64,000 nt of DNA from Thalassospiraceae bacterium LMO-JJ14 (GTDB lineage Bacteria; Pseudomonadota; Alphaproteobacteria; Rhodospirillales; Casp-alpha2), in the NCBI GenBank assembly GCA_021555105.2, contig CP134604.1:62001-126000 (forward strand), written 5' to 3'. The notes beneath the pieces were generated by a model. It was not told the DNA's origin, searched no databases, and saw only the letters and a list, made by a program, of their open reading frames with translations. Position 1 is the stretch's first letter; each line of letters begins with the position of its first letter. This document shows positions 41,145-57,559 of the stretch, piece after piece. The translations under genes were made by a program, and so were the position numbers.

Positions 41145-41192
41145 GAATGGTGGGCGCGACAGGGATTGAACCTGTGACCCCTGCCGTGTGAA
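41145..41192. repeat. Left attachment site repeat
   Basis: A 48-bp copy, identical to 57624-57671, of the 3' part of tRNA-Val from the T-arm to the anticodon stem. Beyond the repeat the tRNA sequence stops, so this is the displaced fragment and not a functional tRNA. Confidence 0.93.
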
Positions 41193-41324
41193 TGCCCAGT
41201 AAATGTCACGCTCCAACACCCTCTAACACCTAGAGGCACCGAAAACCCGTTTATCTACAATTATTTAAGTTGCCGCCCTTGGTGTTGGGGAATATTCCCA
41301 AGGTGATATTCGGTGTGTTTTCCT

Positions 41325-41345
41325 GCACTTCACGCGCACTTCAGC
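41325..41345. promoter_or_regulatory. Candidate integrase arm site, left end
   Basis: Two GCACTTCA motifs in the same orientation, 11 bp apart. A version differing at a single base lies inside the right end (57539-57559) in the same orientation. It falls between the attachment repeat and the integrase ATG. Confidence 0.6.
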
Positions 41346-41365
41346 GCACGAACAGGAGCGGTAAC

Positions 41366-42589
41366 ATGACTATTAAGATAGATAATAATTTGGTGCGGAG
41401 ACTGGCGCACGAGACACCGGACAAGGTCCGCGAGTTTCGGGACTCGTCTCTTAAAGGCTTCCTTATCCGGCAACAGAAGTCGGGCACCATTGCCTACTTC
41501 GTTTCGATCCATCGAGGCTCGTCCGTAAGGCGACAACGCCGAATCAAGGTAGGTGAGCACCCAATGACCAGTCCAGGCGAGGCAAGGCGCAATGCAGAGA
41601 GAAAAATTGCCGAGGCGCGTCTTGGTCAACTTGCGAATAATGATCGAGTTATGACGTTAGGAGAGTTTTTGGATGAGAAGTACCTTCCGTGGGTGCGTAC
41701 AAATCTCAAGGACCCCGTATCGCAAGAGGCTCAACTACGGCGCAACTTCAACCAGTGGCGGCGGCTCAAACTCGATGAAATTAATCGCGAGCTCATCGAC
41801 AACTGGCGGGGAAAACGCCTGAAGTCTGATGTCTCGCCTAACACGGTCAATCGAAACGTCAACGTGATCCGGGCCGTGCTGAGCAAGGCGGTGGAATGGG
41901 AAGCCCTAAAGTTTCATCCGTTAGGCGGGCTGAAGCCACTGAAGATTGACAAGTATAAGCCAGTTCGAGTTCTGAGCGATGAGGAGCGCGTGCGTCTGTT
42001 CGATATCATGCGTGAGCGCGACGCAGAACTTCGGGCCCGACGGGAGAGCTACAACGAGTGGCGGCGAGTCCGGCATCTAAACCCATACCCTGAACTCACA
42101 TACTACGGCGACCACCTTTCACCGATGGTTCTCACCGCCTATCACACCGGAATGCGGCGGGGCGAAATCCTCTCGCTTAAATGGGCGGACATCGACTTCA
42201 GGAAAGGTGAACTCATTGTCCGAGGCGAAGTATCCAAGACCGCGCAGAGCCGGGTCATTCCGATGAACGATCAACTTCGGGAAGTAATGAATAAATGGCG
42301 ATCCCAATCAGAGCTAGTATCCGAATACGTCTTCCCCGGGCCCGATGGCGGACGCATGGACAAGCTCCGCAACAGTTGGAACTCGCTCCGCAAAAGAGCT
42401 GGCCTCAAAAATTTTCGATTTCATGACTTGCGGGCCGACTTTGCCAGCCGTCTGGTGAATGGGGGCGTCTCGTTACCGATTGCACAACGCCTTCTTGGAC
42501 ACTCGAGCCCGGTGATTACGATGAAGTTTTATACAGCGGTCAGCGATGACAGTTTAAGAAATGCTGTAGCAACTGCGGGAAGCACCTAA
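41366..42589 (+). CDS. Tyrosine recombinase (site-specific integrase)
   Basis: A 407-residue phage-type integrase. An N-terminal arm-binding region (residues 1-90, with FLIRQQKSGTIAYFVSIHRG) is followed by a SAM-like core-binding domain (about 95-185) and a catalytic domain with Arg264 (TGMRRGEIL), Lys291 (SKTAQSR), His353 and Arg356 (FHDLRADFA), His379 (LLGHSSP) and nucleophile Tyr389. The complete RKHRHY set indicates an active enzyme. The ATG has AGGAG upstream; a longer frame exists but would run into the arm-site repeat. It presumably catalyses integration at tRNA-Val. Confidence 0.95.
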   Translation: MTIKIDNNLVRRLAHETPDKVREFRDSSLKGFLIRQQKSGTIAYFVSIHRGSSVRRQRRIKVGEHPMTSPGEARRNAERKIAEARLGQLANNDRVMTLGEFLDEKYLPWVRTNLKDPVSQEAQLRRNFNQWRRLKLDEINRELIDNWRGKRLKSDVSPNTVNRNVNVIRAVLSKAVEWEALKFHPLGGLKPLKIDKYKPVRVLSDEERVRLFDIMRERDAELRARRESYNEWRRVRHLNPYPELTYYGDHLSPMVLTAYHTGMRRGEILSLKWADIDFRKGELIVRGEVSKTAQSRVIPMNDQLREVMNKWRSQSELVSEYVFPGPDGGRMDKLRNSWNSLRKRAGLKNFRFHDLRADFASRLVNGGVSLPIAQRLLGHSSPVITMKFYTAVSDDSLRNAVATAGST

Positions 42590-42591
42590 AG

Positions 42592-42960
42592 TCATTTTTT
42601 ACTCAGGGCCGCAAATACAAGGGCAGTCAGTGCTGCTAATCCAATAAGTGCGATAGCATCATTCCCATTCTTCATGGATTTTGCCGTTTGCACCTGCACG
42701 TCTCTCGCAGCTAATGCATCCGCCGCCTCGTCTGCTTCTGCAATCAATTTGTTTGCGGAAACACCAAACACTTCAGCGACAGACCTCAGTTGCTCCACAT
42801 TTATAACTGAATCTCCACGCTCTATTCTCGACCATGCGGATTGTCCCAAATTCAACTTCGACGCTAACTCTTTTTGTTCCATACCTGATTCTTCACGATG
42901 ATGCGCCAGCACCCGCCCAAGAACAGCAGCATAGGTTGTACCTGGTTTTAAGTTTTCCAT
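42592..42960 (-). CDS. XRE-family HTH protein with C-terminal membrane helix
   Basis: A 122-residue protein. Residues 12-75 form an XRE-type HTH (LAHHREESGMEQKELASKL, NLGQSAWSRIERGDSVINVEQL). A linker of charged helix (AEADEAADALAARDVQVQTAK) leads to a single hydrophobic segment near residues 102-119 (AIALIGLAALTALVFAAL) and a Lys-Lys end. A membrane-tethered XRE regulator is unusual. It is transcribed divergently from the LRAT-like gene across 75 bp, which contains an A/T-rich stretch with two GCATATA motifs and a TATAAT. It converges on the integrase with 2 bp between stops. Confidence 0.85.
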   Translation of the reverse strand: MENLKPGTTYAAVLGRVLAHHREESGMEQKELASKLNLGQSAWSRIERGDSVINVEQLRSVAEVFGVSANKLIAEADEAADALAARDVQVQTAKSMKNGNDAIALIGLAALTALVFAALSKK

Positions 42961-43035
42961 TTACATTATTCCGCATATATGATTATAATGCATATAGTAT
43001 TTTTAAGTCGAAACCATAACAAAGGATATAACGGC

Positions 43036-43482
43036 ATGGCTATAAATGAAATAGAAATAGGCTCTCGTGTCTGGGTCAATCTTTTCCCAATCCGCCACCA
43101 CGGACGATATCTTGGCAACGGAATGGTGGCTCACAATTCCAAGAAAAACCGCTGTGTGAGCATCGAGCCCCTCGACGCATTTTCAGATGGGCGTAAGGTT
43201 TACCATTCGCCGCCGAGTACACCTATCGACGTCGCGAACATGTGGGCGTTTGCAGAAAGCCTCGTGGGAAAGCCATATTCGCTGACTGGTTTCAATTGCG
43301 AGCACTTCGCCAACTACTTGGTCGATGGTGTAGCGAAGAGCAAACAAGCAAAATATGGCGCCACAGGAGCTTGTCTGGGCGCCGTAATAGCCATGTCAAA
43401 GAATGGCGGCACACGAGAAGTACTGCTGTTAGCAGGAGTACTTGGCATTGGTGGGCTGTTGTTGGCGCACGCGACCGACTAG
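43036..43482 (+). CDS. LRAT/NlpC-P60-like Cys hydrolase or acyltransferase with C-terminal membrane helix
   Basis: A 148-residue protein. The catalytic layout of the permuted papain (LRAT) fold is visible: His21-His22 in PIRHHGRYLGNG, a following strand with VAHNS, and Cys88 in the signature FNCEHFANYLVDG. A hydrophobic segment (residues 128-145, EVLLLAGVLGIGGLLLAH) ends the protein. LRAT-type enzymes transfer acyl groups from phospholipids or hydrolyse amides or esters; bacterial ones are mostly uncharacterised. AAAGGA lies ahead of the ATG. It pairs divergently with an HTH-TM protein. Both carry a C-terminal membrane segment, suggesting joint action at the membrane. Confidence 0.8.
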   Translation: MAINEIEIGSRVWVNLFPIRHHGRYLGNGMVAHNSKKNRCVSIEPLDAFSDGRKVYHSPPSTPIDVANMWAFAESLVGKPYSLTGFNCEHFANYLVDGVAKSKQAKYGATGACLGAVIAMSKNGGTREVLLLAGVLGIGGLLLAHATD

Positions 43483-43630
43483 TTGTTAGCTAGCGCCTCC
43501 TCCCACTCTCAAGCCCATGATCTTCACCTGTCAGAATTTACAGGTTCTCGTCGGGAAGGTTGTCTATAATATTAACGAAACGGTCCGCGTAGTTTTCTGT
43601 GTTGAGCCGACAGAAACGAAAATATTTGAC

Positions 43631-44686
43631 CTAAAAAGCTCCCGCGTTCTTACAGCCTTCAAGGAAAGTTTTTTTTAGAAAATTACTGTCTGCCAAAGGC
43701 GATCTCGCTGCATGTCTCGCAAGCGTGTCCAAATAGTCTTGCGGCAAGCGTCCATCGATTGTCCACTCATCCAAAATTTGAACTATCCAATACTTACCGT
43801 CATTAGTTCCACAGCACTTTGCTTTGTAACGCTCATCAATCGAGTAAAGATCCCGCCAAGTATCAATCTCTTCACTTTTGGCCACTGGGCCGTATTCGAG
43901 TGCTATTTCATCGACTGAGATTTTCTGAAAGTCGTTGGAGTTAATTGTGATAGTAATCTCAAGGCCCGACGGAATCGCCGAGTAGGGATAAAAAGATTTT
44001 CGCCTAACTCCATTTCTGATCGCAGGATCCTTTGCGAGTTTATAAGTTGTATTACACTCGTGACACGTGGGGGCCAGGTTTCGAAAATTGACGGTGTTGA
44101 ATGGATAGAGAGCTTGTGGCAGAAAATGGTCGTATGCTTCCCGCTTCTCGTGGTTTTCGCTTTTCATGTCTGACAGCCCACAAAAAGGGCATTTTCCCTC
44201 GTTATTTACCGCAACGAATGATTTGTAATGATCCTTGATATCTCCAATTTTTTCTTTCAGCGCGGCCAATCCAAGCACCCGTTCGGAATAAAGGGCTTTA
44301 AAAAATTCTCCAAGTAGTTCTGCGAGACCCTCATTCATCGCCTTGATATCTGCGTACCTTGCGATTTGGTTAGTGGGATCGTTGGCGCAAACTGCTTCTA
44401 GATCGTTGTTCCCTGAGTACCATGACGAAATTTGGGCGATTTCGCCCGCCGTCAGCGTCGCAAATATCTCGTATATTTGCTGGACGTGTCCATTAAAGAG
44501 ATCGGCACCATAAGCATCAGAAACATCAAAAGCATCCATTACTTCTCGAAGTTCGGCATTCCCGTTAAATAGGTCGAGGCTGTATGGTGCGCCCCCCGGT
44601 GCAGCACACCAGACTCCGAAGATGCAATCGATAAACTCATGCATCCTGTCCATCTGGTGTGGCACGAATTGATAAGGACACAGCAT
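43631..44686 (-). CDS. HNH endonuclease of an ATPase-HNH (Septu-like) pair
   Basis: A 351-residue protein. The nuclease motif is zinc-type HNH: CPFCG at 166-169, YDHFLPQ with Asp-His at 186-187, Asn203 in FRNLAPTCHECNTTYK with Cys208 and Cys211. The N-terminal 150 residues are helical without a recognised family. Its ATG overlaps the stop of the ATPase gene by one base, so the two are translationally coupled. The arrangement, AAA ATPase then HNH nuclease, is that of PtuA-PtuB (Septu) defence, but here the pair is the tail of a type I restriction operon. Target and trigger are unknown. Confidence 0.82.
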   Translation of the reverse strand: MLCPYQFVPHQMDRMHEFIDCIFGVWCAAPGGAPYSLDLFNGNAELREVMDAFDVSDAYGADLFNGHVQQIYEIFATLTAGEIAQISSWYSGNNDLEAVCANDPTNQIARYADIKAMNEGLAELLGEFFKALYSERVLGLAALKEKIGDIKDHYKSFVAVNNEGKCPFCGLSDMKSENHEKREAYDHFLPQALYPFNTVNFRNLAPTCHECNTTYKLAKDPAIRNGVRRKSFYPYSAIPSGLEITITINSNDFQKISVDEIALEYGPVAKSEEIDTWRDLYSIDERYKAKCCGTNDGKYWIVQILDEWTIDGRLPQDYLDTLARHAARSPLADSNFLKKTFLEGCKNAGAF

Positions 44687-46488
44687 CAGGCCTCGCTCTC
44701 CATCCTGTCGAGGACCGTCTTGATAAGAATCATTTTCTCAACGGATTCGCCTAATCCGTCATTCAACTCTGCAAGGAGTTGATCTTTGTCTTCTCCATCT
44801 TCAAGCCGCTGCCTCAACGCCTCTATCTTGGATTCCGCCACCCCTCCGATAGTTTCGCTTTTCCCGAAGGTTTTGATGGTGATCTTGTTTACTGACGCAC
44901 CCAATGTTTGATAATTGGGTCGACTTACTGAGACTTGCCCATCGACGTTCTTAAATACCAAAACTCGCTCGGCGCGACTGTCGGAAATCAAGAATGGGCT
45001 GTGTGTTGTAATGAGCATTTCCCGCTCGTGCCCATCGCTGTCTGCAGCGAAGCACTGGCGAAGCCGCGTGACATAGCTGGATCTCCAATCCGGGTTAAAA
45101 TGCGTTTCCGGCTCGTCCAACAAGAAAATAGCGTTGGCATCTTTAAACAAAAGGCTTAGCCCAATGCTGTGCAACAACTGGTGCTCGCCATCAGAAAAAC
45201 TCTTTAAGAGAATGGGCTTATCTAAATCTGCCTTTGTCATCCAAAAGTGCTTAATGCGCATGATGCGCTCATCTGAAGCGAGGACAGGAACGGTCTCATT
45301 CACATAATGACTGTTGGACCGATAAAGGTCTGTTTTGAGATCTTCGCTTACTGAGTAATAGTTGAGAGCCAGGAGAACTTGAAGCGCCTGGAACAATTCG
45401 ACCGCGCCTCCTTGAAAATTCGCTTTGAACGCATCCTTGGTTGCCTCATTCACGAGATAGTCAAGATAGAGGCTACCCGTCTCCTCTTCCTCAAAGCTAC
45501 AAGTCGCACAACGCCTTAAGCGCGAGAGGATTCGGTTTAGTCTACTCTCTTCTTCTGCCGGGGCATCTAAAAGTTCCAACAAATTTAATGTTGCCGTTCT
45601 CTCTTCCTGATCAAATGAAACAGCCGGATGTTCGAGACCAAACTCATCAACGACTTCGAGGGGAATGTCGATTGTTCGCCTGATAACAATTTGAAACTGC
45701 CTCAAACCCTGCAACTTCAATTCCTCGCAAAGCGGCTGCAGTTCTTCGCCCGTCCGAAACAGCAAATTACAAAGCAAAATTGCCTGACTGAAAGAGTTAT
45801 CCATATAGGCCAGACGGGTTTCTGGCTTGCCGGGATAGTCGAGTTGTTCTTTTAGGCTGTTCCAATATTCATCAAATTGGATAAATCGCATTTTAAAAAA
45901 TGGGAGACTGAGAATTTCGTTTTCACCAGAGGAGTAACCAAGGACAAATTGGGGTAGCAAGAAGTTACGTTCGCGCGAACTTATCCCACCGATATCACTT
46001 AGCCTCTCGACTTCCGCTAACGATTCGACTTCAGCAAGTGATACCGCATTGTCCGATACAAAATCGGACATATTGACCCAATTCATTTCAAGCGAACGAC
46101 TAGGATCTTTGATCACTCGAACATGCGCGTGCGTAACATCCGACTTCTGGATTTCGCTTGGCACTTTAACTAAATATTCGAGCTCGAAGCCGTTTGGCTC
46201 GAATGCTTCAGTGACGGGGTCGTCGTCGTGTTCCGAAGGCATAAGCGCCATTGGGAGATAACTTCGCTGAACCCGCAGCAATTCGAGCTGATAGAAGATT
46301 GCGGCCAATGCCTCTAAGATGTTCGACTTTCCGCTGCCATTGGGCCCGGCGCAAATGAACGGCTCAAATTCATAGGATTTACCAGTCTCATCCTGCAAAT
46401 CCCATTCACGCCGGAAAGTACACTCAAACCCAGCTCGTAAACTTCTAAATCCCTCGGGACCCGTAATCTTGAGACGAATCAGTCGCAT
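44686..46488 (-). CDS. AAA/ABC-type ATPase linked to the type I restriction operon (PtuA-like)
   Basis: A 600-residue SMC/RecF-like ATPase. The Walker A motif AGPNGSGKSNILEAL lies at about residues 47-61; a long insert of helices fills the middle; SFSDGEHQLLHSIGL is the ABC-type signature, IFLLDEPETHFNP the Walker B, and LITTHSPFLISD the switch His. A hydrophilic coiled tail (ESKIEALRQRLEDGEDKDQL) follows. It resembles ATPases annotated as restriction-system-associated and the PtuA/OLD group, though no Toprim domain is present. The ATG at 46488 starts 4 bp after the hsdS stop; an upstream TTG would overlap hsdS. It probably senses a phage signal and controls the HNH partner. Confidence 0.85.
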   Translation of the reverse strand: MRLIRLKITGPEGFRSLRAGFECTFRREWDLQDETGKSYEFEPFICAGPNGSGKSNILEALAAIFYQLELLRVQRSYLPMALMPSEHDDDPVTEAFEPNGFELEYLVKVPSEIQKSDVTHAHVRVIKDPSRSLEMNWVNMSDFVSDNAVSLAEVESLAEVERLSDIGGISSRERNFLLPQFVLGYSSGENEILSLPFFKMRFIQFDEYWNSLKEQLDYPGKPETRLAYMDNSFSQAILLCNLLFRTGEELQPLCEELKLQGLRQFQIVIRRTIDIPLEVVDEFGLEHPAVSFDQEERTATLNLLELLDAPAEEESRLNRILSRLRRCATCSFEEEETGSLYLDYLVNEATKDAFKANFQGGAVELFQALQVLLALNYYSVSEDLKTDLYRSNSHYVNETVPVLASDERIMRIKHFWMTKADLDKPILLKSFSDGEHQLLHSIGLSLLFKDANAIFLLDEPETHFNPDWRSSYVTRLRQCFAADSDGHEREMLITTHSPFLISDSRAERVLVFKNVDGQVSVSRPNYQTLGASVNKITIKTFGKSETIGGVAESKIEALRQRLEDGEDKDQLLAELNDGLGESVEKMILIKTVLDRMESEA

Positions 46489-46492
46489 GATT

Positions 46493-48031
46493 TCAATCAA
46501 CCACTTGCAGTCTTACAAGATTCTCATCTTCGATAAATGCTTGACTGATTTTTCCGTTCGCAATTTCTTCGAACACCCAATCACGAAAAGTTTCATATTC
46601 GCGTGAGGAAAAGGGGCGATTTTCCTCCCCCATGTACTCGAGTGCCCGAAATTGCACATTCTGCCAGAAGGCATCAAACGACAAATCAGTGCCGCTATCC
46701 GGGCCTTGCATTAGTTCGTCGAACCATTGGCGCAGCAGCCGCTCACGGCCATCTCGCGAGTCCATCGGGGCGCCTTCTATAGAAAGAGATGTCTCGTACT
46801 CTTCATGCTCTTCAATATGATCTGCGAAATTAGTTTCTTGATGTAACGGGACACGAGACAGGCCCAGCACTCCCTTGAATGCCCTCTGGCTCAAAGCGCC
46901 GTAAAGGTCTTCTAAATCATTCCTGCTTTGCTGATAACGGGATTTGAGAGCTTCGATTTTCTCAACTATCTCGGCGAATTGGTTCTGAAGATCGATGGGG
47001 GGTAATGGAAACGGAATTTTATTTAATGCACCGACATTAAAATGTTTCTGAATTCCACCAACCTCGCGTGATGCGACCATCGCCATACCTCGCTCAGAGT
47101 TGAGTAGGCAAGTTAAATACAGTGGATGAAGTCTCTCGCGTCTAGGTCGGACAATGATGAGATCAATGCAATTTGCGCCATCAAGTTCCTTGGGTACGAC
47201 GGCTGCTGTTCCAGTTTTCCCGGTTCGCACAATCACTATGTCATCGGCTTGGAGACGCGATTTAGACAGAACACTGTCGTGAGCTTCCTGTGAGAAAAAA
47301 ACTAAATCATTCAAATCTATATAATTTGCTTTTATGTTCAGGGACCTTAGCGCGATTACGCCATTTTCGGCATAATGCGAAGCAGGTTTCACCACAACAC
47401 CGACAGTCACCTTCTCGGCATACTCTCTCGATGTCCCCAGTTCCCAATTTTTTTTATTCAATACAGGATCACCGAACATTTCTATAAAGACGCTCTTTAG
47501 CAGATCGTCGAGATCATTCAGGTGACGCACTCTCTGGGCAATTAGATCTTCTAGCTTATTCAGCAGATATGCGATGCGCTTTTGGTCATCGAGAGGTGGA
47601 AAAGGGATCTGTATTGCCAAGAAGTCTGCAGTGGTCAGGCTGCGCCTTCTGGCAACAGCTCCCCGCATTTTTGATGCGTATATTCGACGTGCCTGATTTG
47701 AGCGCAAATAGCGCTCGAGGTATGGTATGTGCGCCTCGGCATTATCGATAAGCTTCCAGATTTTGTAAGCTGGGCTCACGATCCCAGCTGGATATTTCGT
47801 TTGAAATCCAAGCACTCCCTCATCAATAGGGAACCCGACCACAAGTTCATTTTTGTAGGCAACCAAGTACTTCGCTGTGTCACGACTCGCTACGCGTTTT
47901 TTGAACTTCTCAGCCTGATCAACCAGGCCATCCTTCATTGTGATCGATAAAACTGGATATTCACCACTTCCTGCTCTCTCAGTTCCAGATTTCTTGAATA
48001 ATGATCCTAGTGATCGTCGGGCCCATGTCAT
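46493..48031 (-). CDS. hsdS: Type I restriction-modification specificity subunit with C-terminal extension
   Basis: A 512-residue HsdS. Two target-recognition domains are each followed by a helical spacer: the first spacer begins LTTADFLAIQIPFPPLDDQKRIAYLLNKLEDL, the second LNKIPFPLPPIDLQNQFAEIVEKIEAL. Together they read a bipartite DNA target. After the second spacer, at about residue 400, HsdS proteins normally end; here an extra acidic region of about 110 residues follows (for example SFDAFWQNVQFRALEYMGEE and REYETFRDWVFEEIANGK). It overlaps hsdM by 4 bp and precedes the ATPase by 4 bp, so the extension may dock the downstream proteins. Confidence 0.92.
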   Translation of the reverse strand: MTWARRSLGSLFKKSGTERAGSGEYPVLSITMKDGLVDQAEKFKKRVASRDTAKYLVAYKNELVVGFPIDEGVLGFQTKYPAGIVSPAYKIWKLIDNAEAHIPYLERYLRSNQARRIYASKMRGAVARRRSLTTADFLAIQIPFPPLDDQKRIAYLLNKLEDLIAQRVRHLNDLDDLLKSVFIEMFGDPVLNKKNWELGTSREYAEKVTVGVVVKPASHYAENGVIALRSLNIKANYIDLNDLVFFSQEAHDSVLSKSRLQADDIVIVRTGKTGTAAVVPKELDGANCIDLIIVRPRRERLHPLYLTCLLNSERGMAMVASREVGGIQKHFNVGALNKIPFPLPPIDLQNQFAEIVEKIEALKSRYQQSRNDLEDLYGALSQRAFKGVLGLSRVPLHQETNFADHIEEHEEYETSLSIEGAPMDSRDGRERLLRQWFDELMQGPDSGTDLSFDAFWQNVQFRALEYMGEENRPFSSREYETFRDWVFEEIANGKISQAFIEDENLVRLQVVD

Positions 48032-49710
48032 CCCAGTATCCTTTGCAACTCAATGAGCTCGCGCACAATCCCGCTCTGGATATTTCTCAGGTCCACATGA
48101 TCCATTGCACCTACTTCATTCGCTAGCAACCGTTGTAAAATTACTTCTGGCGCCTCATATTCCACTTCTTCAAACACATCCTCTTTGTATCGAGATAGCG
48201 ACAGGTCATACCCTTCCTCCTCGATGTCTGCGCGAGGCACCATGAAATATTTCTGCGTGCGGTCGGTGTCAGTTTCGGGATTGCGGGCATTGTATCGAGC
48301 GACAATTTCTTGCAGGTCGCCATAGCCAACTTGTTTGCTGCGCTTATCATCAAGCGAATATCCATCTGACTGCATGCCATAAAACCAAATATTTTCAGTG
48401 GCCGGCTTAGCTACCTTGTCTTCCGCTCCCCAGACTTTCGTGAAAAGCAGGATCGCGGTACTGACTCCGGCGTAAGGCTTAAACACTCCGCTCGGCATGG
48501 TAATAACGGCTTTGAGGTCGCATCGCTCGACCAGCATCTGGCGCAGGCTCTTGAACGCCCCGCCCGAACTGAACAGCACGCCTTGCGGCACGATAACGCA
48601 ACCGGTGCCGCCCTTTTTCAAAAGACGGTAGATGTTTTCGACAAACAGCAATTCAGTCTTGGTGGTGGGGAGGGTTAGATTTTCATTGATGTCCCCTTTG
48701 TCGATACTGCCGGTAAAAGGCGGGTTAGCCATCACAATGTCGTATTCAGCCTCCTCAACATAGCTTTTGCTCAAGGTGTCTCTGTAATCGATGTTGGGCT
48801 CATCGACACCATGCATCATCAAGTTCATCAGCCCCAATCGCACCATGGTACTATCGATGTCGTAGCCGAATAGAGAGGCTTGCAGAATGGATTGCGTTTT
48901 TTCGGTAAGCCCCGCCGCCACGGATGTGCGAATAAAGCCGTCTTCGTCCGGATGCAATTCCTTAGCTCCAGCTTTTTTGGCGAGCTCAGTCACGATATAT
49001 TGGTACGCGCCAAGCAAAAAACCGCCTGTACCGCAGGCTGGATCAGCAATTCGATGACCAAGTTGCGGCTGCACCAGATCAGCCATTAGCTTGATGATAT
49101 GGCGCGGGGTACGGAACTGTCCGTTCTTACCTGCTGCAGCAATCTCGCTGAGGAGCATTTCATAGACATCGCCTTGGATGTCCTGGAAAGCCTGGCCGTT
49201 TTCTTGCGAGTCCGTCTCCATGATCTCGAAGATTTCGTCGATCGTCTTTACCGCTTCCACCAACAGAGACGCTTTAGGGATAATGAACGCTGCATTGCGC
49301 ATATGATGAGTAAATTTCGATTCAGCTCCGTTCATGTCCTTAAGGAATGGGAACACTTTGCTTTGGACGTGCTGTAGCATTGCCTCGGCCTGCATATGCT
49401 TGAACTCACTCCAACGCAGTGAGCTCTTATCAACGGCATGAACCATCTCCGTTCGAGCGTCCAACTCATCGATGGAGTCTTTTGATCGATATTCCGGTGG
49501 AATCCATACGCCTTCGAATTTTGAGGTGTATGGCTCACCGGTCCACTCAGCATCGGCCTGTCTTTTCTTATCCAACTCGTCGATTCGCTTCATGAACAAC
49601 AGGTAGGTGATTTGCTCGATCGCTGTGAGCGGGTTGGAAATACCGCCGGACCAAAACTTGTCCCACAGTTGATCGATCTTGGTTTTTAGCTCGGGGTTGT
49701 TTTGGAGCAT
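48028..49710 (-). CDS. hsdM: Type I restriction-modification DNA methyltransferase subunit
   Basis: A 560-residue N6-adenine methyltransferase. The N-terminal HsdM helical domain (KIDQLWDKFWSGGISNPLTAIEQITYLLF) is followed by motif I ADPACGTGGFLLG at 222-234 (AdoMet site) and motif IV NPPF at 329-332 (catalytic). It methylates the host target sequence together with HsdS. The stop overlaps the hsdS start (ATGA). AAGGAA lies upstream of the ATG. No sign of decay. Confidence 0.96.
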   Translation of the reverse strand: MLQNNPELKTKIDQLWDKFWSGGISNPLTAIEQITYLLFMKRIDELDKKRQADAEWTGEPYTSKFEGVWIPPEYRSKDSIDELDARTEMVHAVDKSSLRWSEFKHMQAEAMLQHVQSKVFPFLKDMNGAESKFTHHMRNAAFIIPKASLLVEAVKTIDEIFEIMETDSQENGQAFQDIQGDVYEMLLSEIAAAGKNGQFRTPRHIIKLMADLVQPQLGHRIADPACGTGGFLLGAYQYIVTELAKKAGAKELHPDEDGFIRTSVAAGLTEKTQSILQASLFGYDIDSTMVRLGLMNLMMHGVDEPNIDYRDTLSKSYVEEAEYDIVMANPPFTGSIDKGDINENLTLPTTKTELLFVENIYRLLKKGGTGCVIVPQGVLFSSGGAFKSLRQMLVERCDLKAVITMPSGVFKPYAGVSTAILLFTKVWGAEDKVAKPATENIWFYGMQSDGYSLDDKRSKQVGYGDLQEIVARYNARNPETDTDRTQKYFMVPRADIEEEGYDLSLSRYKEDVFEEVEYEAPEVILQRLLANEVGAMDHVDLRNIQSGIVRELIELQRILG

Positions 49711-49742
49711 AGGTCAAATTCCTTGTGGCTGGCCGCGCGCCA

Positions 49743-52544
49743 TCACGCTGCTAAGCGTTCCGTGAGGTGCAAAATTTCGCTGATTTCTGCCGGGCTAAAA
49801 ACACCCCGGATTCCTTGCGGATGGATTATTGTGAACGGCGCGTTAATAAGATCCTTCTTCTCGATCTTTTCGCGCTCAATGATATAGCCCTTGAGTAAGT
49901 TCAAAAATTCCAACTGTCGACTAGAAAGGTTGCTGTGCTGCTTAATAAATAGTTCAAAAGCATCACTTACTGTCTCTGGGAAGCTTTTTAGAATTTCGAT
50001 ACCGAGAATGTGTCGAATAAATTGCAAAAAGTGTGCTTTACGGTTCTTATAAACTTGGCGAAGCAAGTCTTCCGTGATGTGCGGATGTTCCGCATGGAGA
50101 GCCTCGGCTAACTCGTCCGCTTCACTTGCTGAAATATCCTGACCGTCTTTCAATTTTTGCAGAATGGGCGACGTCTCTATTAGCTCAAAAATCAACGTCT
50201 CGACCATTTCTCGATATCGTGAGACGCTTACTGCCTCATTCTCCGGCCCAAATTCAACATACTCTTTCCTATGTATTTCATCTTTCAAATTCAGATGGAC
50301 GGGGGCGTTATCCGGTCCGGTCTGCTCTCTGAATTTCATAAGCGGAGCGAGCCTGGTAACTAGGTCGTCAAAAGCATCTTCGTCTGCCTGAGACCAATAG
50401 CGGTTGGTTTGTGCTGATCGGATTAAGACCTCCTCGACACTAACGAAACTGATGCTCAGAGGCAGCGTTGCGATCTGCTCAACGATAGCTGCCTTTAATG
50501 TTTCAGATTGAGCCGTTTCGTCGTTCATCCTCGCCAGAGAATACTCAAGAACGTCTTTGCTGAATTTCATTGCCTTGAAATCACCGTCCGACGCTGTTCG
50601 GAATAACGGCTTAATCTCTTGTCGCAGGAACTCGATCCTTTGGTGGTCAAAAGCTATCCAGAAATTTTCCTCTTCTAAACGAGCCAATGCGGCGGCGGCT
50701 TCCTTGATTACAACGGATCCTTTGGGAAGACTCGCGATTTGAATTCTGAGTTTGCCAATTTCGCGATCAGCAATCTGATGCAATCCCGTATCAATGGCTT
50801 TTTCGATTTTATCGATACGCAATGATACGAATCGGACCGGCAACGGAACTTGTGGCGGCTGGTCCTTTCCTTTCGGTTCGACTTTGAAATATTCGAAATT
50901 GTCCCAACAATCTAGGATCAGGAATACATCCTTTTCGACGCACCACGGTTTGATTTTTTTCTCTTCTAGTAGCCGCGTGCCGCGACCTATCATCTGCCAA
51001 AATCGCGTGTAAGAATAGATCGGCTTTGCAAATACCAAATTGACGATTTCACGCACATCAACGCCGGTATCCAACATTCCAACACTAATAGCGATGCGCG
51101 GCATGTCATTGTTCTTAAATTGGTCCAGGAGACCGCCCTTGCCGTATACGCGGGAGTCGTCAGAAACTAACACCTTTGCGAGCTCGCCCTTATACTGTGG
51201 AAAAAGACTATCGAATATTTCCTCCATTCGCCGCGCATGCGGGATGGATGAGCAAAAGAAGATCGTCTTTCCCGGAAGAACACCATTCGGGTCTTTAATG
51301 CTCTCTTCCATAAACTCACGAACGATCAGCGCGTTGGTACCGCGATTTATAACTTTCTTCTCTAGTGCTGTGCCTTCGAAATTGATTTCCTCAATTTCCT
51401 TACCTTCCAGTATCAGCCTTTTCTGGTCTTCTAATGATATGGTTCGCTTGCTGATCCCTTCTATTTGGAATCGGGTTTGAATTTTCATGACCTGGAAACC
51501 ACACAAATAGGGTGGCTTGTTGGAGAGTGCTTCCTCATAGGTATAGGCAAACGAGGGGACACCATCCTCGCAGTGAAATAGCTGGAACGTATTATGATCG
51601 ATAACGTCTGTTGGCGTTGCAGTAAGGCCGAGGGTGATTGTCTTAAAATAGTTAAGAATCTCCCCATAAGCGTTGTAGATCGAACGGTGGCTCTCATCGA
51701 CAACAATTAGGTCGAAAAAGTGCGGAGATATTTCTTGGGTCTCACCACGAATTATATTCAGCATCGAAGGATAGGTAGATACGTATATCCTCCGATTTTT
51801 TACGATCAATTTTTCGCCCACATTGGGCCATCGTGGCTCATTGGGAAGATGCTCTTTGAAAGCATCCAAGGCTTGTTCGCGCAGAGCAATCCGGTCTACG
51901 AGAAACAGTACGCGCTCTGCGTGGCTCGCCCGCATTAGGGCGTCTATCAACGCGATACATGTCCGCGTCTTGCCAGTACCCGTCGCCATAACGAGCAAAA
52001 AATTCCGTCGTTTTTGCTCTATACCTTCCAAGATAGAGCGAATAGCTCTGATTTGATAATCACGACCCGCAATATTGGTATTGATTAAAGCCTCCGTCAG
52101 AGGCTTGCGGTTCCTCCGGATGTAGGCAAAGCGCTCGAAATCATCTCTGGTCGGGAATCCGACCACCTGCTTGGGCGGGGAATTGCCTAAGTCCCAAAAA
52201 TATGTCTCGTACCCATTGGTATAGAAACAAAAGGGAAGCTCTCCCCCCTTTTCGGCCTGAATGTTGTGACAATACTGCTTCGCTTGCTCCCGACCCAACC
52301 CCGCGTCTCTAGATGTCTTTTTGGCCTCCACCACGGCGAGCGGCTGCCCATCTTTACCCAGAAGCACGTAGTCACTGAATTGATGACCTTCAAAAGGAGT
52401 TCGTGGCGCGTCTACACCGTCGGGAAGGCCAGTCAAAATATCGAACTCTTGGACAACTTGGGTTGGGTCATCCACATTCCAACCTGCTTGTGCCAAAAGC
52501 CTATCAATTAGTTCGACACGGGTTTGTGCCTCTGTCTTTGACAA
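49743..52544 (-). CDS. hsdR: Type I restriction endonuclease subunit R
   Basis: A 933-residue restriction and translocation subunit. N-terminal nuclease motif: Asp58 in QFSDYVLLGKDG and Glu73-x-Lys75 in VVEAKK (PD-(D/E)xK). The SF2 motor follows with Walker A MATGTGKTRT at about 186-195, DESH at 283-286 and LGLTATP. The C-terminal helical region binds HsdM. Translation begins with TTG, supported by a strong GGAGG eight bases upstream. It is the first gene of the hsdR-hsdM-hsdS order and lies 32 bp ahead of hsdM. It cleaves unmodified DNA after ATP-driven translocation. Confidence 0.95.
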   Translation of the reverse strand: MSKTEAQTRVELIDRLLAQAGWNVDDPTQVVQEFDILTGLPDGVDAPRTPFEGHQFSDYVLLGKDGQPLAVVEAKKTSRDAGLGREQAKQYCHNIQAEKGGELPFCFYTNGYETYFWDLGNSPPKQVVGFPTRDDFERFAYIRRNRKPLTEALINTNIAGRDYQIRAIRSILEGIEQKRRNFLLVMATGTGKTRTCIALIDALMRASHAERVLFLVDRIALREQALDAFKEHLPNEPRWPNVGEKLIVKNRRIYVSTYPSMLNIIRGETQEISPHFFDLIVVDESHRSIYNAYGEILNYFKTITLGLTATPTDVIDHNTFQLFHCEDGVPSFAYTYEEALSNKPPYLCGFQVMKIQTRFQIEGISKRTISLEDQKRLILEGKEIEEINFEGTALEKKVINRGTNALIVREFMEESIKDPNGVLPGKTIFFCSSIPHARRMEEIFDSLFPQYKGELAKVLVSDDSRVYGKGGLLDQFKNNDMPRIAISVGMLDTGVDVREIVNLVFAKPIYSYTRFWQMIGRGTRLLEEKKIKPWCVEKDVFLILDCWDNFEYFKVEPKGKDQPPQVPLPVRFVSLRIDKIEKAIDTGLHQIADREIGKLRIQIASLPKGSVVIKEAAAALARLEEENFWIAFDHQRIEFLRQEIKPLFRTASDGDFKAMKFSKDVLEYSLARMNDETAQSETLKAAIVEQIATLPLSISFVSVEEVLIRSAQTNRYWSQADEDAFDDLVTRLAPLMKFREQTGPDNAPVHLNLKDEIHRKEYVEFGPENEAVSVSRYREMVETLIFELIETSPILQKLKDGQDISASEADELAEALHAEHPHITEDLLRQVYKNRKAHFLQFIRHILGIEILKSFPETVSDAFELFIKQHSNLSSRQLEFLNLLKGYIIEREKIEKKDLINAPFTIIHPQGIRGVFSPAEISEILHLTERLAA

Positions 52545-52597
52545 GCGCTTACCTCCCCATGCGCAATTTGATCGCAGCCATCCAAGTCTTGAATAGA

Positions 52598-53506
52598 TTA
52601 TTCAAAGAAATCTTCATCGACCTTTTTAAGGTGCAGAACTTCTTCGTCTCTACACCCGATACTGTAACGGATCATCAAACGCGTAAGCTCCCCGCCATCA
52701 ATCAAGACAATGCGCATTCCAAGGTCCTTGGCTGTTTGTTTTGCATCAAGACTAAACGAGGACGTTGTCACGAATATGCCCTTCTGCGCTCGTTTTAAAT
52801 TCAGCGCCCCATAGAAGTCTCTAATTGCACCTGCACCAATGTTATTTCCCTCCGCGTATTTTTTCGCTTGGATGTATATTTGGTCGACGCCAAGTGGGTC
52901 TTGATCAATCACTCCATCCACGCCGTTATCCCCACTTTGGCCAAGAGCTCGCCCAGCGTCCTCGGAAGTGCCGCCATACCCCATGGCCAACAGCAGTTCG
53001 ACGATTAAATTCTCAAAAAATGCTGGCGTCTCATCTCGAACTCGGTCCAGCAACTCAGACGCTAATGCGGCGTTGATTTTCCTATGAGCCGATCTCAAGA
53101 CTTCGTCCGGCGTCGCGTCGATTTCTGGCGCTTCGGAGACTGCGCTACCCTCGTCGCTTACGTCACGCGTTCGAGCTTGGAATTCTTGATACTCATCGAA
53201 CTGCTCGAGGTAGGACCTGTCTATTGTGGTGCTTTCATCAGCCAGTGCGGCGCGCCCACGGTCCGTGATTATAAAGTACCCACGCCTTGTGGTCCGGACG
53301 AGACCAGCTTGCTTTAAGTAACTCTTGGCCCAGTGAACTCGGTTAGCGAACTGAGTCTGCTTCCCGCTGGGGAGTAATTTGTCTCGATCTTCTTCCGACA
53401 ATGACAACTTGTCTGCCAGCGTATCGACAACGTCCCCAATCTTGACCTCGCCATGTTGAGCGCTTTCGAGTACCGGGCGCATCAGTTCTTGGAAATTGGG
53501 CACCAT
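52598..53506 (-). CDS. mrr: Mrr-type restriction endonuclease
   Basis: A 302-residue protein with the two-part Mrr architecture. Residues 1-95 are an Mrr_N winged-helix domain (VPNFQELMRPVLESAQHGE, FANRVHWAKSYLKQAGLVRTTRRGYFIITDRG). Residues 160-290 are the nuclease domain: FFENLIVELLLAMGYGG, GQSGDNGVDGVIDQDPLGVDQIYIQAKKYA with the catalytic Asp-Gly and QAK, and GIFVTTSSFSLDAKQTA. Mrr cleaves DNA carrying foreign methylation. It sits 53 bp ahead of hsdR on the same strand and so forms a joint restriction cluster. Confidence 0.94.
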   Translation of the reverse strand: MVPNFQELMRPVLESAQHGEVKIGDVVDTLADKLSLSEEDRDKLLPSGKQTQFANRVHWAKSYLKQAGLVRTTRRGYFIITDRGRAALADESTTIDRSYLEQFDEYQEFQARTRDVSDEGSAVSEAPEIDATPDEVLRSAHRKINAALASELLDRVRDETPAFFENLIVELLLAMGYGGTSEDAGRALGQSGDNGVDGVIDQDPLGVDQIYIQAKKYAEGNNIGAGAIRDFYGALNLKRAQKGIFVTTSSFSLDAKQTAKDLGMRIVLIDGGELTRLMIRYSIGCRDEEVLHLKKVDEDFFE

Positions 53507-54046
53507 ACACTTAACCCTAAATGTTCGATATTCGTAGCGACCTAATAAATTGATAGCCGCTTCTTTCTACCCTGAGTTATATACACCAAACATAAAGCAC
53601 TATGTAGGTAGATGGCCATTCCCAAAAATCGATTCAGAGTTGTCGCGCTTGGGTCCCCTTGATGCACACGACATCGCAACTGGCTAAGAGCCCATCCCCA
53701 CCCTGATATCATGCATACTCTGGCCACGTAGGGGCCGGCACTTCAAATGCCCCGTCTATCGCGGGCTTTGGTTGGCAATCCAAATTTTGAAGTGCGCAGG
53801 AAGTGCGGAACCGCCCTTCGAGCGAACAAAGAACACCCATATGCGAGGTCGTCGAGCTATCGCCCAGATGTCTATCGCAAGGCAAGGGGCAGTTCGCGGA
53901 ACACCTCAGAGGGCCGTGGAGAGGCCGACTCGATGTCCCGGGCCCCGCGATAGCAGGCCACCCCGACTCGCGCATCCTCGGCCATACAAGATGCAACCGG
54001 TATCGGGAGGTCGGGATGCGATCGGAGAACGCCACGAATTGCTAAG
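53507..54046. other. 540-bp non-coding stretch between mrr and the replication region
   Basis: No frame looks coding. A 10-bp inverted repeat (GCACTTCAAA at 53738-53747 and TTTGAAGTGC at 53786-53795) contains the same GCACTTCA core as the arm-like sites at the island ends. The stretch is less A/T-rich than typical promoters. It may hold the mrr-hsdR promoter at its left end (minus strand) and otherwise shows nothing I can name. Confidence 0.5.
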
Positions 54047-54156
54047 CGTCACGTCACATGACGCGAAGCACAGCCGACGACGATGCCTGAGGGGGAGATC
54101 ATCCCCCTCCCCCTGATCCGGACCACCACTACATTAAAATGTGACGTGACGTGACG
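54047..54156. repeat. Iteron-like inverted repeat with central hairpin next to the primase gene
   Basis: CGTCACGTCACAT (54047-54059) is matched by its exact inverse ATGTGACGTGACG (54139-54151), and the second arm extends to a triple GTGACG. Between them GAGGGGGA and TCCCCCTC form an 8-bp hairpin with a 5-nt loop. The array lies 9 bp beyond the stop of the PrimPol-ATPase gene. Such repeats beside a replication gene suggest an origin; the hairpin could also end its transcript. Confidence 0.6.
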
Positions 54157-54164
54157 ATAAGCGG

Positions 54165-56546
54165 TTAAAAATTGTAATCACGGCCTATTGGGTCGATGCC
54201 GTCCAATATTTCCTTAGGCAGCCATATCCCCCGACTACGCGGCCCGTTAAAACGTAAAGGTTCTTGAGGTCGCGCACCATCGATACGAGCCAACGCATCG
54301 CGCCAACTACCGTTCTCCCACCGTGTATTTCGATAAATCTCCGCGAGCCCCGGATGGCGATTAGCAACCACAAATCCGTCGTCGACCACTTTCACCCCTC
54401 GATTTAGCAAGTCCGTGACACTCGGCGGCGAATTATGCCCAGCACCCGTTGCTAGTACTGTCGCCAAGATTGACCCAACCGTATATTCGTCGATTAGAGT
54501 ACCAAGCAGATGATTAAGGCAGTCATCCGCATCATCGATACGGTGTGCTTCAGCATGAATTTGTATGAGGTCAAAGTATCTCTCGATCCAGAGGGCGGCT
54601 TCCGCCTGACTGGGGACACGACCTTCCAATGCCAAGAATGCCCCCGCGAACATCGTCGACATGTTGTTTAGGTGACGGCTATCTTCGGGCGGCATCTCCC
54701 CAAGAAATGTACTGACAGCCTCTGGAACCAATCCCGCCAACCGGATTGCATTCTGGCACCATGCCGGACCGAGGGCCTCGAATTCATCCATTGCCTGGTT
54801 AAACATTCGGCCGGTATTAGGATCGTTGTCGTGCCGGTCCAATTCGAACCTGATAATCCGTGACGCGTCCGCAGACGTGAGGATTGTTGGATGGATCGCA
54901 GCAAACAAAAAGGATGCGCGGATATTAAATTGTAGCGCTTTTCCTTCTGGTGTTCCTCTCGCAACCTGGCTCTCTGATGAGTAAGCGCTGCGCGCAAGTT
55001 TCATCACGCTGCTAAGGCGACCCCGACTACCGTCACTTTCAAACTCATCGAGAATTACCGGCAGGCTATCCGCTTGTAGTCGCTGCCTAATACCGGCCTC
55101 GGTGCTTTGGCCATCCAAACTGACGACCAGCGGCGACAGGAGCCTCGTTATACCGTTCAGCAGGGTCGTTTTGCCGGTGTTGCGTGCGCCGATCAGAAAA
55201 CCGTGTGGTCGCGATTTAAGGACGCCACAGATCGGAGCAAGAAACATCCAACCAAGTAAAAGCAGGGGATCGTCTGTGTTCTTCCAATTCGGCAAAGAGA
55301 TCGCTTCGAGAATTCTATTTGCATCGACCTCATAGTCGCCACCGTCGAAGTCTACAGGATCAAAACAAACATAAACGTTCTTCGACTCCTCCGGCACCCT
55401 TCCCGTCAAGTTGACGATGATATCACTGCCATCTCTCCAGACACCTCTCCCCCTAACCCGGTCCATGTTAAATGGCCCTCTATCGCGACACGCCTGCATT
55501 AATACATCTGCGGCCCATTGTGGCGCGAACCCGGCGGGCTCCCCTTTGGGACCAAGCTTTGGGAACCTCTCTTCCCAGAAGTCCTTATTTGCTAACCCGA
55601 GTAATCCGGCGGGTGTCGTAAGTTGTTGTGCTGACATCGCCATCACCAACCTCGACCTTGGCATAAAGAACACAAAAGTATTCTGGGGCGTGTACCCTAA
55701 GGGCTGAGGGCCAATGTCTCCCGGGTCGTATGACTGAGATAGTACCGGACTGTCGAAGTCCTTGCGCCGAGCGTCTTCGATCATACCGGGGAGTTCATCC
55801 AGAGTGTTCCCTGGATAACCGCTTGGGAACAGCGACGAGATTACTCTCAGAATTTCAGCATTATCGCCAAAGCGGACACACTGTGCCGCGAGCCTCAGGG
55901 TCGCATCGTGGGTTCCGGTCCCGCCCAAGATGGTCGGAGTATGTTCCGATTGAACTATCACCTTTAGAAGGCCCAATTGCCGCGCTGTGAATGCTGGCAG
56001 TTCTGTCCGTTCTACTTCGAGCAGAGAGCGGTCGCCCCATGTATAGCTCTCTCCTGTTGTTGGATGGATTGAGGGCGGGATCACAACTTGGCTCTTGTTG
56101 CAGAGAATATCGCCGACATGGCCGATGTGGGTAGATGCTAGTTTGCAAGTTTCGACCCCTTCTTCCGCGCGGACAAAAGCGCTAGCGCCCTTTGCCCCGT
56201 ATTTGACAATCAAACCCTTGCCAAGAATTGCTTCTAGCACACCTGTAAATCGATCATCATCGATATCAACTACTGCGAGACGGTGGTCCTCTCCGATTTT
56301 GCCCCCCAATACTAGGCCGATGTTCATGCCGCCGAACTCTCGCGCCCATTCACCCATCCTCTCTTTGCTGGGACGGCTGTTTGGCGCGGAGTAACTTGGC
56401 CAGTTCGTCACACGAGGCTGTTTGCCCTCGACGGGAATTGGGGAATATCCCTGGTGCCAATAGTCAAATGCCGCATCGGCAAATGGTGTCGGGACATTGC
56501 GCAATGACCTACCCAACCCAACTTCGTTCTTCCTATCCTTGGACAT
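54165..56546 (-). CDS. PrimPol-helicase-like replication protein
   Basis: A 793-residue protein. The N-terminal bifunctional primase/polymerase domain (about residues 20-200) has the catalytic D-x-D in LAVVDIDDDRF (Asp94, Asp96) and VGDILCNKSQVVIPPSIHPTTGESYTWG. The C-terminal half has an ATPase with Walker A GARNTGKTTLL at 453-463 and Walker B VILDEF at 498-502. Such fusions replicate plasmids, satellites and integrated elements. The ATG has AGGAG upstream. It follows the AlpA-like gene by 33 bp, and an iteron-like repeat lies directly beyond its 3' end. It implies that the island replicates after excision. Confidence 0.85.
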   Translation of the reverse strand: MSKDRKNEVGLGRSLRNVPTPFADAAFDYWHQGYSPIPVEGKQPRVTNWPSYSAPNSRPSKERMGEWAREFGGMNIGLVLGGKIGEDHRLAVVDIDDDRFTGVLEAILGKGLIVKYGAKGASAFVRAEEGVETCKLASTHIGHVGDILCNKSQVVIPPSIHPTTGESYTWGDRSLLEVERTELPAFTARQLGLLKVIVQSEHTPTILGGTGTHDATLRLAAQCVRFGDNAEILRVISSLFPSGYPGNTLDELPGMIEDARRKDFDSPVLSQSYDPGDIGPQPLGYTPQNTFVFFMPRSRLVMAMSAQQLTTPAGLLGLANKDFWEERFPKLGPKGEPAGFAPQWAADVLMQACRDRGPFNMDRVRGRGVWRDGSDIIVNLTGRVPEESKNVYVCFDPVDFDGGDYEVDANRILEAISLPNWKNTDDPLLLLGWMFLAPICGVLKSRPHGFLIGARNTGKTTLLNGITRLLSPLVVSLDGQSTEAGIRQRLQADSLPVILDEFESDGSRGRLSSVMKLARSAYSSESQVARGTPEGKALQFNIRASFLFAAIHPTILTSADASRIIRFELDRHDNDPNTGRMFNQAMDEFEALGPAWCQNAIRLAGLVPEAVSTFLGEMPPEDSRHLNNMSTMFAGAFLALEGRVPSQAEAALWIERYFDLIQIHAEAHRIDDADDCLNHLLGTLIDEYTVGSILATVLATGAGHNSPPSVTDLLNRGVKVVDDGFVVANRHPGLAEIYRNTRWENGSWRDALARIDGARPQEPLRFNGPRSRGIWLPKEILDGIDPIGRDYNF

Positions 56547-56579
56547 ACCGAGCTCCTAACTCATCATTGGCCGGTGCAG

Positions 56580-56804
56580 TTACGTGATTTCATGCGTGCC
56601 GCGATAACGGCGGCGATCCAGCCATGCGTTCAGGTCGTGGATGTCGTACCTGACGGTCCGACGACCTATGCGAATGAAGGGGGGCCCATCGAGTTCCGGG
56701 CGAAATCGTGATGTCTTCAGCCAATGCACGGACATCCCGAGCCATTCAGCGGCCTCAGATGTCGTCAACAGACGACGCTTTTCATTATCTCTATCGGAAG
56801 TCAT
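56580..56804 (-). CDS. AlpA/excisionase-like HTH protein
   Basis: A 74-residue MerR-like winged-helix protein: LLTTSEAAEWLGMSVHWLKTSR is the HTH, and PPFIRIGRRTVRYDIHDLNAWLDRRR the wing with the conserved RY-DLxxWL pattern of AlpA and Xis proteins. GAGGAG lies seven bases ahead of the ATG. It probably directs excision or switches on the replication gene that follows. It sits between the unknown gene and the PrimPol-ATPase gene. Confidence 0.85.
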   Translation of the reverse strand: MTSDRDNEKRRLLTTSEAAEWLGMSVHWLKTSRFRPELDGPPFIRIGRRTVRYDIHDLNAWLDRRRYRGTHEIT

Positions 56805-56883
56805 CTTGGGCTCCTCTTCGGCGGAGCCCTGATATTGTCGAGGACGATCTTTGGATTCGTCCTTCTTTTATTCGGACCAAGAG

Positions 56884-57453
56884 TTAGGCTTTGTGTGTCC
56901 AGTATATCCGATACTTACTCTTTTTGTAGTAATGGAGAAGCTGCCCAAACGGGACGCCTGTGCGATTGGATACGTGCTCGACAACATCATTTAGGTGACG
57001 AGTAGCCCAAATCCGGATCTCTGTGTGATTGAGTTTCTTCGTCCGACTATTGTAGAGGAATGACCAAGCGAATGCGTCCCAGTCTTCTTTCAATTGGTCC
57101 GTGTCAATATTTTGGTTCCGGGCGGCAACGTCATTGATCGCATCTGCAATAGACATCTTTTGGCGAAAAATACGCGAACAGATTCTTTGGCATCGCGTCA
57201 GCCATCCAACATCCCAACACGCATCGAGGTAAGGCTTATCCAATGCCTTCTGCGTCGATACAAACTTGAGATCGGTTGAGCGACCTCGATCTCGCGGTCG
57301 CGTCAAATACTCTTCAACGATCTTCGGCATGAAGCCGTTGACGCGGGCAGCACGATCAATGTCCTGCTGTCGAGGCTTGCCGTCATCTTTGATGATCTCC
57401 TCGATCCAATACCAATCGAATGGGCTCGGTTTCTCCGCACCAACTCGGGACAT
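56884..57453 (-). CDS. Unknown island protein, first gene of the replication operon
   Basis: A 189-residue soluble protein with no signal or membrane segment and many Arg, Asp and Trp residues. The start ATG is picked for the strong GGAGG eight bases upstream; the frame is open 13 codons further. Notable segments are SPFDWYWIEEIIKDDGKPRQQDIDRAARVNGFM and EVTHN-free helical tail NRTGVPFGQLLHYYKKSKYRIYWTHKA. I do not recognise a family. Its place before the AlpA-like gene suggests a regulatory or replication-initiation role. Confidence 0.65.
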   Translation of the reverse strand: MSRVGAEKPSPFDWYWIEEIIKDDGKPRQQDIDRAARVNGFMPKIVEEYLTRPRDRGRSTDLKFVSTQKALDKPYLDACWDVGWLTRCQRICSRIFRQKMSIADAINDVAARNQNIDTDQLKEDWDAFAWSFLYNSRTKKLNHTEIRIWATRHLNDVVEHVSNRTGVPFGQLLHYYKKSKYRIYWTHKA

Positions 57454-57491
57454 CTTCCCTACCTCCGTCATAAGGGGACGTACTATATGCA

Positions 57492-57532
57492 CAAGATATC
57501 GAAGTTTAGAACTACTGTGAGACGATATCTTG
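57492..57532. repeat. 10-bp inverted repeat near the right end
   Basis: CAAGATATCG (57492-57501) and CGATATCTTG (57523-57532) form a perfect inverted pair separated by 21 bp, lying between the first gene of the replication operon and the arm-like site. Likely a binding site for an element regulator or accessory factor. Confidence 0.55.
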
Positions 57533-57538
57533 CAAACC

Positions 57539-57559
57539 GCACTTCACACGCACTTCAGC
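57539..57559. promoter_or_regulatory. Candidate integrase arm site, right end
   Basis: Two GCACTTCA motifs 11 bp apart in the same orientation, differing at one base from the copy at 41325-41345. It lies 64 bp inside the right attachment repeat. Confidence 0.6.

Follow-up and report, generated by a model that had tools for sequence, protein, structure and literature searches.

A type I restriction operon consistently linked to an ATPase-HNH nuclease pair and carrying an additional tail domain on HsdS

Introduction

Type I restriction enzymes count among the oldest defences known. To our knowledge, only a handful of effectors, chief among them PrrC, have been demonstrated to be coupled to these enzymes. 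The type Ic restriction-modification enzyme EcoprrI holds the anticodon nuclease PrrC (PMC2610378), and PrrC and PARIS are both regarded as guardians, PARIS being an ATPase sensor with a nuclease that answers anti-restriction signals (PMC12707154). In a retron, PtuAB brings about toxicity and loss of tRNA-Tyr, with retron parts having been tested as the antitoxin (PMC11555353), and Septu likewise cleaves tRNA-Tyr (PMC13096335). Here we analyzed a stretch of 64,000 nucleotides from Thalassospiraceae bacterium LMO-JJ14 (contig CP134604.1, positions 62,001 to 126,000; hereafter the window), in which a type I restriction operon runs directly into genes for an ABC-type ATPase and an HNH nuclease. 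Judged from the sequences, the linkage of hsdS, ATPase and HNH genes is not incidental, and the restriction enzyme and the ATPase-HNH pair probably work as one antiviral machine, because an additional tail domain of HsdS is found only where the pair is present.

Results

Gene content of the operon

The initial annotation placed six genes in order on one strand, and all six proved to be intact open reading frames of the minus strand with matches to the expected families:

43631-44686 (-), HNH nuclease gene, 351 amino acids, with a short core match to the PtuB and PDC-M01B models
44686-46488 (-), ABC/OLD-type ATPase gene of family TIGR04435, 600 amino acids from ATG 46488 or 604 from TTG 46500
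46493-48031 (-), hsdS, specificity subunit, 512 amino acids, with two target-recognition domains and a C-terminal tail (Methylase_S 7e-16)
46496-46795 (-), HsdS C-terminal tail domain, the last 100 residues, a predicted winged helix and proposed ATPase docking module
48028-49710 (-), hsdM, N6-adenine methyltransferase, 560 amino acids (N6_Mtase 2e-58, HsdM_N), with DPACGTGGF and NPPF motifs intact
49743-52544 (-), hsdR, restriction-translocase subunit, 933 amino acids, TTG start (ResIII, HSDR_N, EcoEI_R_C), with nuclease and helicase motifs intact
52598-53506 (-), mrr, Mrr-type methyl-directed nuclease, 302 amino acids (Mrr_N 6e-31, Mrr_cat 3e-32), adjoining the conserved system and outside it

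HsdR, HsdM and HsdS, each with its family domains and motifs, make this a type I restriction-modification system. Spacings are +53 base pairs (bp) between mrr and hsdR, +32 bp between hsdR and hsdM, -4 bp between hsdM and hsdS, and -1 bp between the ATPase and HNH genes. Between hsdS and the ATPase gene the spacing is -8 bp from the mechanically called TTG and +4 bp from ATG 46488, the latter being the preferred start because alignment to relatives favours it. The gene order goes beyond chance, since it recurs in every testable relative, Mrr excepted.

The ATPase is flanked by hsdS and the HNH gene in every testable locus

A scan of 84,980 species genomes, for which five aligned ATPases served as query, yielded 293 confirmed relatives. 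We analyzed the best 80 of these together with three annotated plasmid loci and two whole-genome loci, giving 85 distinct loci with the window included (L055 and L007 are the same place and were counted once). Profile searches of all open reading frames in the survey loci revealed that, wherever the 85 loci allow a test, the ATPase gene has hsdS as its immediate upstream neighbour and the HNH gene as its immediate downstream neighbour, the sequence ending on the upstream side of L067 and on the downstream side of L079. Because loci were picked by ATPase similarity, this result describes the neighbours of the ATPase and not how frequently an hsdS has one. By their record titles, the survey loci span at least ten phyla. 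The initial annotation had proposed such a survey, with rare linkage counting against its idea of a composite system; instead, linkage was universal in the sample.

The spacing is as regular as the order: -4 bp between hsdS and ATPase in 49 of the 83 loci measured and -1 bp between ATPase and HNH in 64 of 84. Large spacings are few and come from split or mis-started open reading frames (e.g., L008, L081). Cargo genes of kinds frequent in loci like these, which we named by eye from sequence as RhuM/Fic-like, KilA-N-like, AlbA-like and DUF1016-like, occupy the hsdR-hsdM junction in about 20 loci and the hsdM-hsdS junction in about five, and never lie within hsdS-ATPase-HNH; in L081 the ATPase gene itself is interrupted by about 2 kb.

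The system is uncommon, yet its linkage is tight. At the strict threshold, TIGR04435 was found in 3 of 398 Pseudomonadota genomes (the window's own included), and in 5 of 178, 5 of 175 and 1 of 179 genomes of the phyla of Chryseobacterium, Halomicronema and Paenibacillus, respectively, the centre genome included in each case. All five new loci that these whole-genome samples supplied (L168-L171 and L173) keep hsdS-ATPase-HNH. No relative was confirmed in viral contigs and none was found in phage records, and we accordingly rejected a viral or phage origin.

These observations bear on whether the pair is a self-contained Septu-like module that is only carried along with a type I operon, as the existence of stand-alone ATPase-HNH pairs (L143, L144) and the clustering of defence genes might imply. 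Every testable ATPase of the family sits behind an hsdS, however, with overlapping reading frames and no cargo insertion, and HsdS proteins without the pair lack the tail domain described below. This explanation is disfavoured, and we regard it as very improbable.

An additional HsdS tail accompanies the pair

The HsdS proteins of these loci extend 100-160 residues beyond the usual end and share the conserved pattern Y-x3-K-x-W-V-F-x2-L-x2-G-x-L-x-Q ... N-x-I-x-L. As controls we took 14 HsdS from type I loci that lack the pair, which were located by using HsdM of the window as query; all end at the usual place, and 0 of 14 match the tail profile. In one control (L108) HsdM is 82% identical to that of the window, and HsdS aligns up to the start of the tail and then lacks it. 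Half-trained tail profiles recovered 40-41 of 42 held-out HsdS and let no control pass; a profile trained on the proteobacterial block only recovered 32 of 41, an indication that recognition is less sure for the most distant tails. Tails of the five new loci scored 27-128 bits, and among the 398 genomes strong tail matches came only from the three that also possess the ATPase and the HNH protein. Sequence searches of the tail against Pfam and solved structures returned nothing usable; the domain is not in Pfam and is newly described here.

AlphaFold2 predicted the tail to be a winged helix (mean predicted local distance difference test, pLDDT, of 81), with structural matches at Z 6-7.5 to cullin and PadR winged helices, a chain of Wadjet JetABC and a chain of the cohesin head module. 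The model suggests that the tail docks on the head of an ABC-type ATPase; as the winged-helix fold is common, such matches suggest docking and do not show it. In two Methylobacter loci (L047, 6821-9013; L070, 6869-9013) HsdS measures 714-730 amino acids and bears an extra segment of about 200 residues between core and tail.

The tail co-diverges with the ATPase

Pairwise distances across the 48 loci with all parts complete were compared by a permutation test. Once HsdM, HsdR and the HsdS core were removed, tail and ATPase remained correlated (partial r 0.36, 0/1000 permutations), also within the main clade (0.34, 2/1000), while none of the partial correlations for HsdS core and ATPase (0.04), tail and HNH (-0.04) or ATPase and HNH (0.09) was significant. 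Both halves of the ATPase contribute to the signal, its middle most strongly, and the stretch adjoining hsdS is therefore not the only source. The window had raised the suspicion that hsdS and the ATPase-HNH pair are functionally linked; at the level of sequence comparison, this is supported by the tracking of the ATPase by the tail and by the universal linkage.

The same data speak to the possibility that tail and pair assist ordinary restriction, the winged helix binding DNA or HsdR and the pair trimming or degrading the DNA ends that HsdR makes. HsdR is there in most loci and winged helices often bind DNA, in keeping with such a role. On the other hand, the divergence of the tail follows that of the ATPase and, when the ATPase is controlled for, does not follow that of HsdM, and operons without HsdR (below) keep the pair, which makes this explanation improbable.

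ATPase and HNH nuclease resemble PtuA and PtuB

The ATPase scores 727.7 bits against the curated cut-off of 300 for TIGR04435 (restrict_AAA_1, NCBIfam), an uncharacterised family named 'restriction system-associated AAA family ATPase'. Its Walker A (GPNGSGKS, 46324-46347), signature (LSDGEHQ) and Walker B (LLDEPE) motifs show little or no variation across 60 aligned proteins. The structure analyses left out plasmid-derived rows. The solved structures nearest to the ATPase profile are PtuA (E 2e-12 to 1e-8, in the C-terminal part) and AriA (E 1e-7), and among PADLOC models the ATPase is likewise near PtuA, with the HNH protein near PtuB and the candidates PDC-M01B/M62B, in its case over the HNH core only.

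The HNH core, C166-x2-C169-G ... D186-H187 ... N203-L204 ... C211-N212 ... K216 (window 44039-44191), has metal-binding cysteines and D-H, N and K residues that are invariant in 75 aligned proteins. Sequence searches of the protein against solved structures or Pfam gave nothing usable. Its structure model is confident (pLDDT 94), and plain Foldseek against PDB and BFVD found no significant match; a second aligner matched the model to chain F of the retron-Eco7 complex 9vhl at Z 8.0 over 185 residues, the edge of the informative range by that aligner's notes, with the next match at 2.1. We take chain F to be PtuB from its length and the entry, a sequence check of this assignment having found nothing. 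The HNH protein thus has a PtuB-like predicted fold, in agreement with the PtuA-PtuB layout that the first reading of the window had recognised in an ATPase gene followed by an HNH gene.

HsdR and Mrr are variable

HsdR is the usual and not the universal partner: it is present in most loci with enough flank, but some loci lack it and nevertheless retain HsdM-HsdS-ATPase-HNH. In Priestia L006 and in the case of the Hymenobacter plasmid L145, the replicon contains no HsdR; in L170 none is adjacent, with other HsdR genes elsewhere in the genome. In the cyanobacterium of L173 (G616), a search of the 7.3-Mb genome found no full-length HsdR, and only open reading frames of about 210-220 residues matched the HsdR nuclease domain. 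The place of hsdR in Chryseobacterium L084 is taken by a 1050-amino acid fused Sir2-Argonaute (2630-5782), 6 bp upstream of hsdM, which matches solved short-Argonaute and Sir2 chains; an upstream open reading frame of 1050 amino acids in L169 turned out to encode an SMC protein and not a second such fusion. As for Mrr, which had been counted as a part of the system, it was next to the operon nowhere but in the window, L025, L052 and L060 (4 loci), and we rejected it as a component.

Three diverged cousins were also recovered. L142 has hsdRMS-ATPase-HNH with no recognisable HsdS tail, the HsdS of L145 has a weak tail-like end, and L174 combines an HsdS whose tail-like end is missed by the profile with an ATPase and a canonical PtuB (105 bits). 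Plasmid pHsw2 of Hymenobacter swuensis (L145/L146) bears phage-like terminase and tape-measure genes as well as HsdM-HsdS-ATPase-HNH.

The window operon is cargo of a mobile element

Missed at first, the operon of the window is the cargo of a 16.5-kb element integrated at tRNA-Val (41145-57675), with the following parts:

41145-41195, att repeat at one element end, 50/51 identity to 57625-57675
57625-57675, att repeat forming the 3' part of tRNA-Val(CAC), whose gene is 57628-57702 (-)
41270-42589 (+), tyrosine integrase of the element, beside one repeat
54165-56546 (-), Prim-Pol/phage-type primase of the element
56580-56804 (-), small HTH_17 (AlpA/excisionase-like) protein of the element

Across the operon, G+C drops to 0.47-0.50, against about 0.60 outside it. 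A 167-amino acid LRAT-like protein (Pfam LRAT, 42979-43482) is encoded beside the element's regulator. Elsewhere in the window, at least six copies of a 24-bp repeat run in register (37578-37793) within a multicopper oxidase gene adjoining a copB-like gene.

Discussion

The sequences show which parts are present and that they are obligately linked, and they reveal the HsdS tail and the way it co-diverges with the ATPase. On these grounds we favour, at a rough probability of 0.42, a composite antiviral system in which HsdM and HsdS (HsdMS) hold an ATPase-HNH effector that is released upon phage interference and cleaves host nucleic acid. Docking, inhibition, trigger and substrate are the steps that we infer. 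The C-terminal winged helix of HsdS would dock the PtuA/AriA-type ABC ATPase, which in turn would hold the PtuB-fold HNH nuclease, and HsdM-HsdS may keep the effector tethered and inactive. Phage interference with the complex, either by an anti-restriction protein or through failed restriction, would then change the state of the ATPase and free or activate the nuclease, and cleavage of host tRNA or DNA would abort the infection. Such a mode of working could be likened to that of PrrC on EcoprrI or of PtuAB on the retron complex, HsdMS being the putative holder.

Several observations weigh against this proposal. A winged helix can bind DNA instead of a protein, the diverged operon L142 does without a recognisable tail, and adjacency or linked inheritance by recombination could be part of the tail-ATPase signal. 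Moreover, where HsdR is absent (L006, L145, L170 and L173) it cannot be the guarded partner. The HsdR-less relatives thereby speak against HsdR being simply what is guarded and are compatible with either of the two versions based on HsdMS. The second of these is that HsdMS aims the pair: it would read an unmethylated target, where the HsdS tail would recruit and activate ATPase-HNH, beside HsdR or replacing it, as a second restriction effector. This fits the position of the link on HsdS, the DNA-reading subunit whose tail tracks the ATPase, and the four HsdR-less operons, in which the pair would be the sole effector of the HsdM-HsdS-ATPase-HNH core. Yet HsdR is kept in the great majority of loci, the contigs are drafts, and HsdR could act in trans, as the other HsdR genes of the L170 genome illustrate; relatives of known activity, furthermore, cleave tRNA and act abortively (PMC11555353, PMC13096335), although the former paper mentions a report of DNA degradation by Septu PtuAB. 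Tail, linkage and HsdR-less forms together point to contact with HsdMS without deciding between an effector held silent and one that is aimed. We prefer the held effector by analogy, because the characterised relatives are toxic, tRNA-cleaving effectors (PMC11555353, PMC13096335), and consider the aimed nuclease rather unlikely.

If the HsdS tail does dock a second nuclease, the methylase would become a sensor platform, beyond its role in self-marking, and the answer of the cell to anti-restriction proteins would become testable through tail deletion; the HsdR-less forms would be a natural test of HsdMS running a different effector. We tentatively put forward HsdM-HsdS-ATPase-HNH as a distinct, methylation-sensing class of immunity, in which the methylase may serve as sensor, may be wired by the HsdS tail to a PtuAB-like effector, and HsdR would be an optional addition.

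Comparison with known systems

The description of this locus as an under-described system was over-stated in one respect: the ATPase already bears the NCBI name 'restriction system-associated', and pairs of an OLD-type ATPase with a nuclease are already catalogued. A 2026 survey of BREX (PMC12839542, citing Krishnan et al. 2020) states that restriction-like systems anchored by ABC ATPases had earlier been reported to contain OLD-type ABC ATPases with various nucleases, HNH listed among them. The window ATPase belongs clearly to TIGR04435, whose name records the association with restriction and nothing further, the returned hits attaching no HNH partner family, HsdS tail or mechanism. Our literature search, outside subscription papers, found no account of the HsdS tail or of the five-gene operon; nor did it find a paper carrying the TIGR04435 name or accession.

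Septu (PtuA-PtuB) and the PtuAB of retron Eco7/Ec78 share with the present pair an ATPase gene followed by an HNH gene, a PtuA profile match and a PtuB-like HNH fold with the C-x2-C...DH...CN core. The HNH protein here is longer, however, and PtuB models match it only over that core (33 bits). Septu is a two-gene stand-alone system, whereas the pair here lies behind hsdS in every testable locus, and we rejected the stand-alone Septu label on gene context. As for retrons, no reverse transcriptase was found among the operon genes, and the window ATPase reaches 48.9 bits against a cut-off of 500 for the PtuA of retron Ec78 (NF041760).

MADS likewise brings a methylase, a specificity subunit and an ATPase together in one system, but the matches to MAD2, MAD3 and MAD5 are weak (123, 24 and 59 bits against cut-offs of 720, 420 and 400), the HNH pair is matched by none of the MADS models, and no further genes of that system were observed. 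PARIS (AriA-AriB) is similar in its ATPase, AriA matching our ATPase profile (E 1e-7); it differs in that AriB is a TOPRIM nuclease (PMC12839542), where the partner here is an HNH nuclease, and in that PARIS is not built into an hsd operon. PrrC with EcoprrI offers the parallel of a type I operon with an ABC-ATPase nuclease as second line, held by the restriction-modification enzyme (PMC2610378). PrrC, however, is one protein with another nuclease, whereas the system described here has two proteins, an HNH nuclease among them, and a dedicated HsdS tail.

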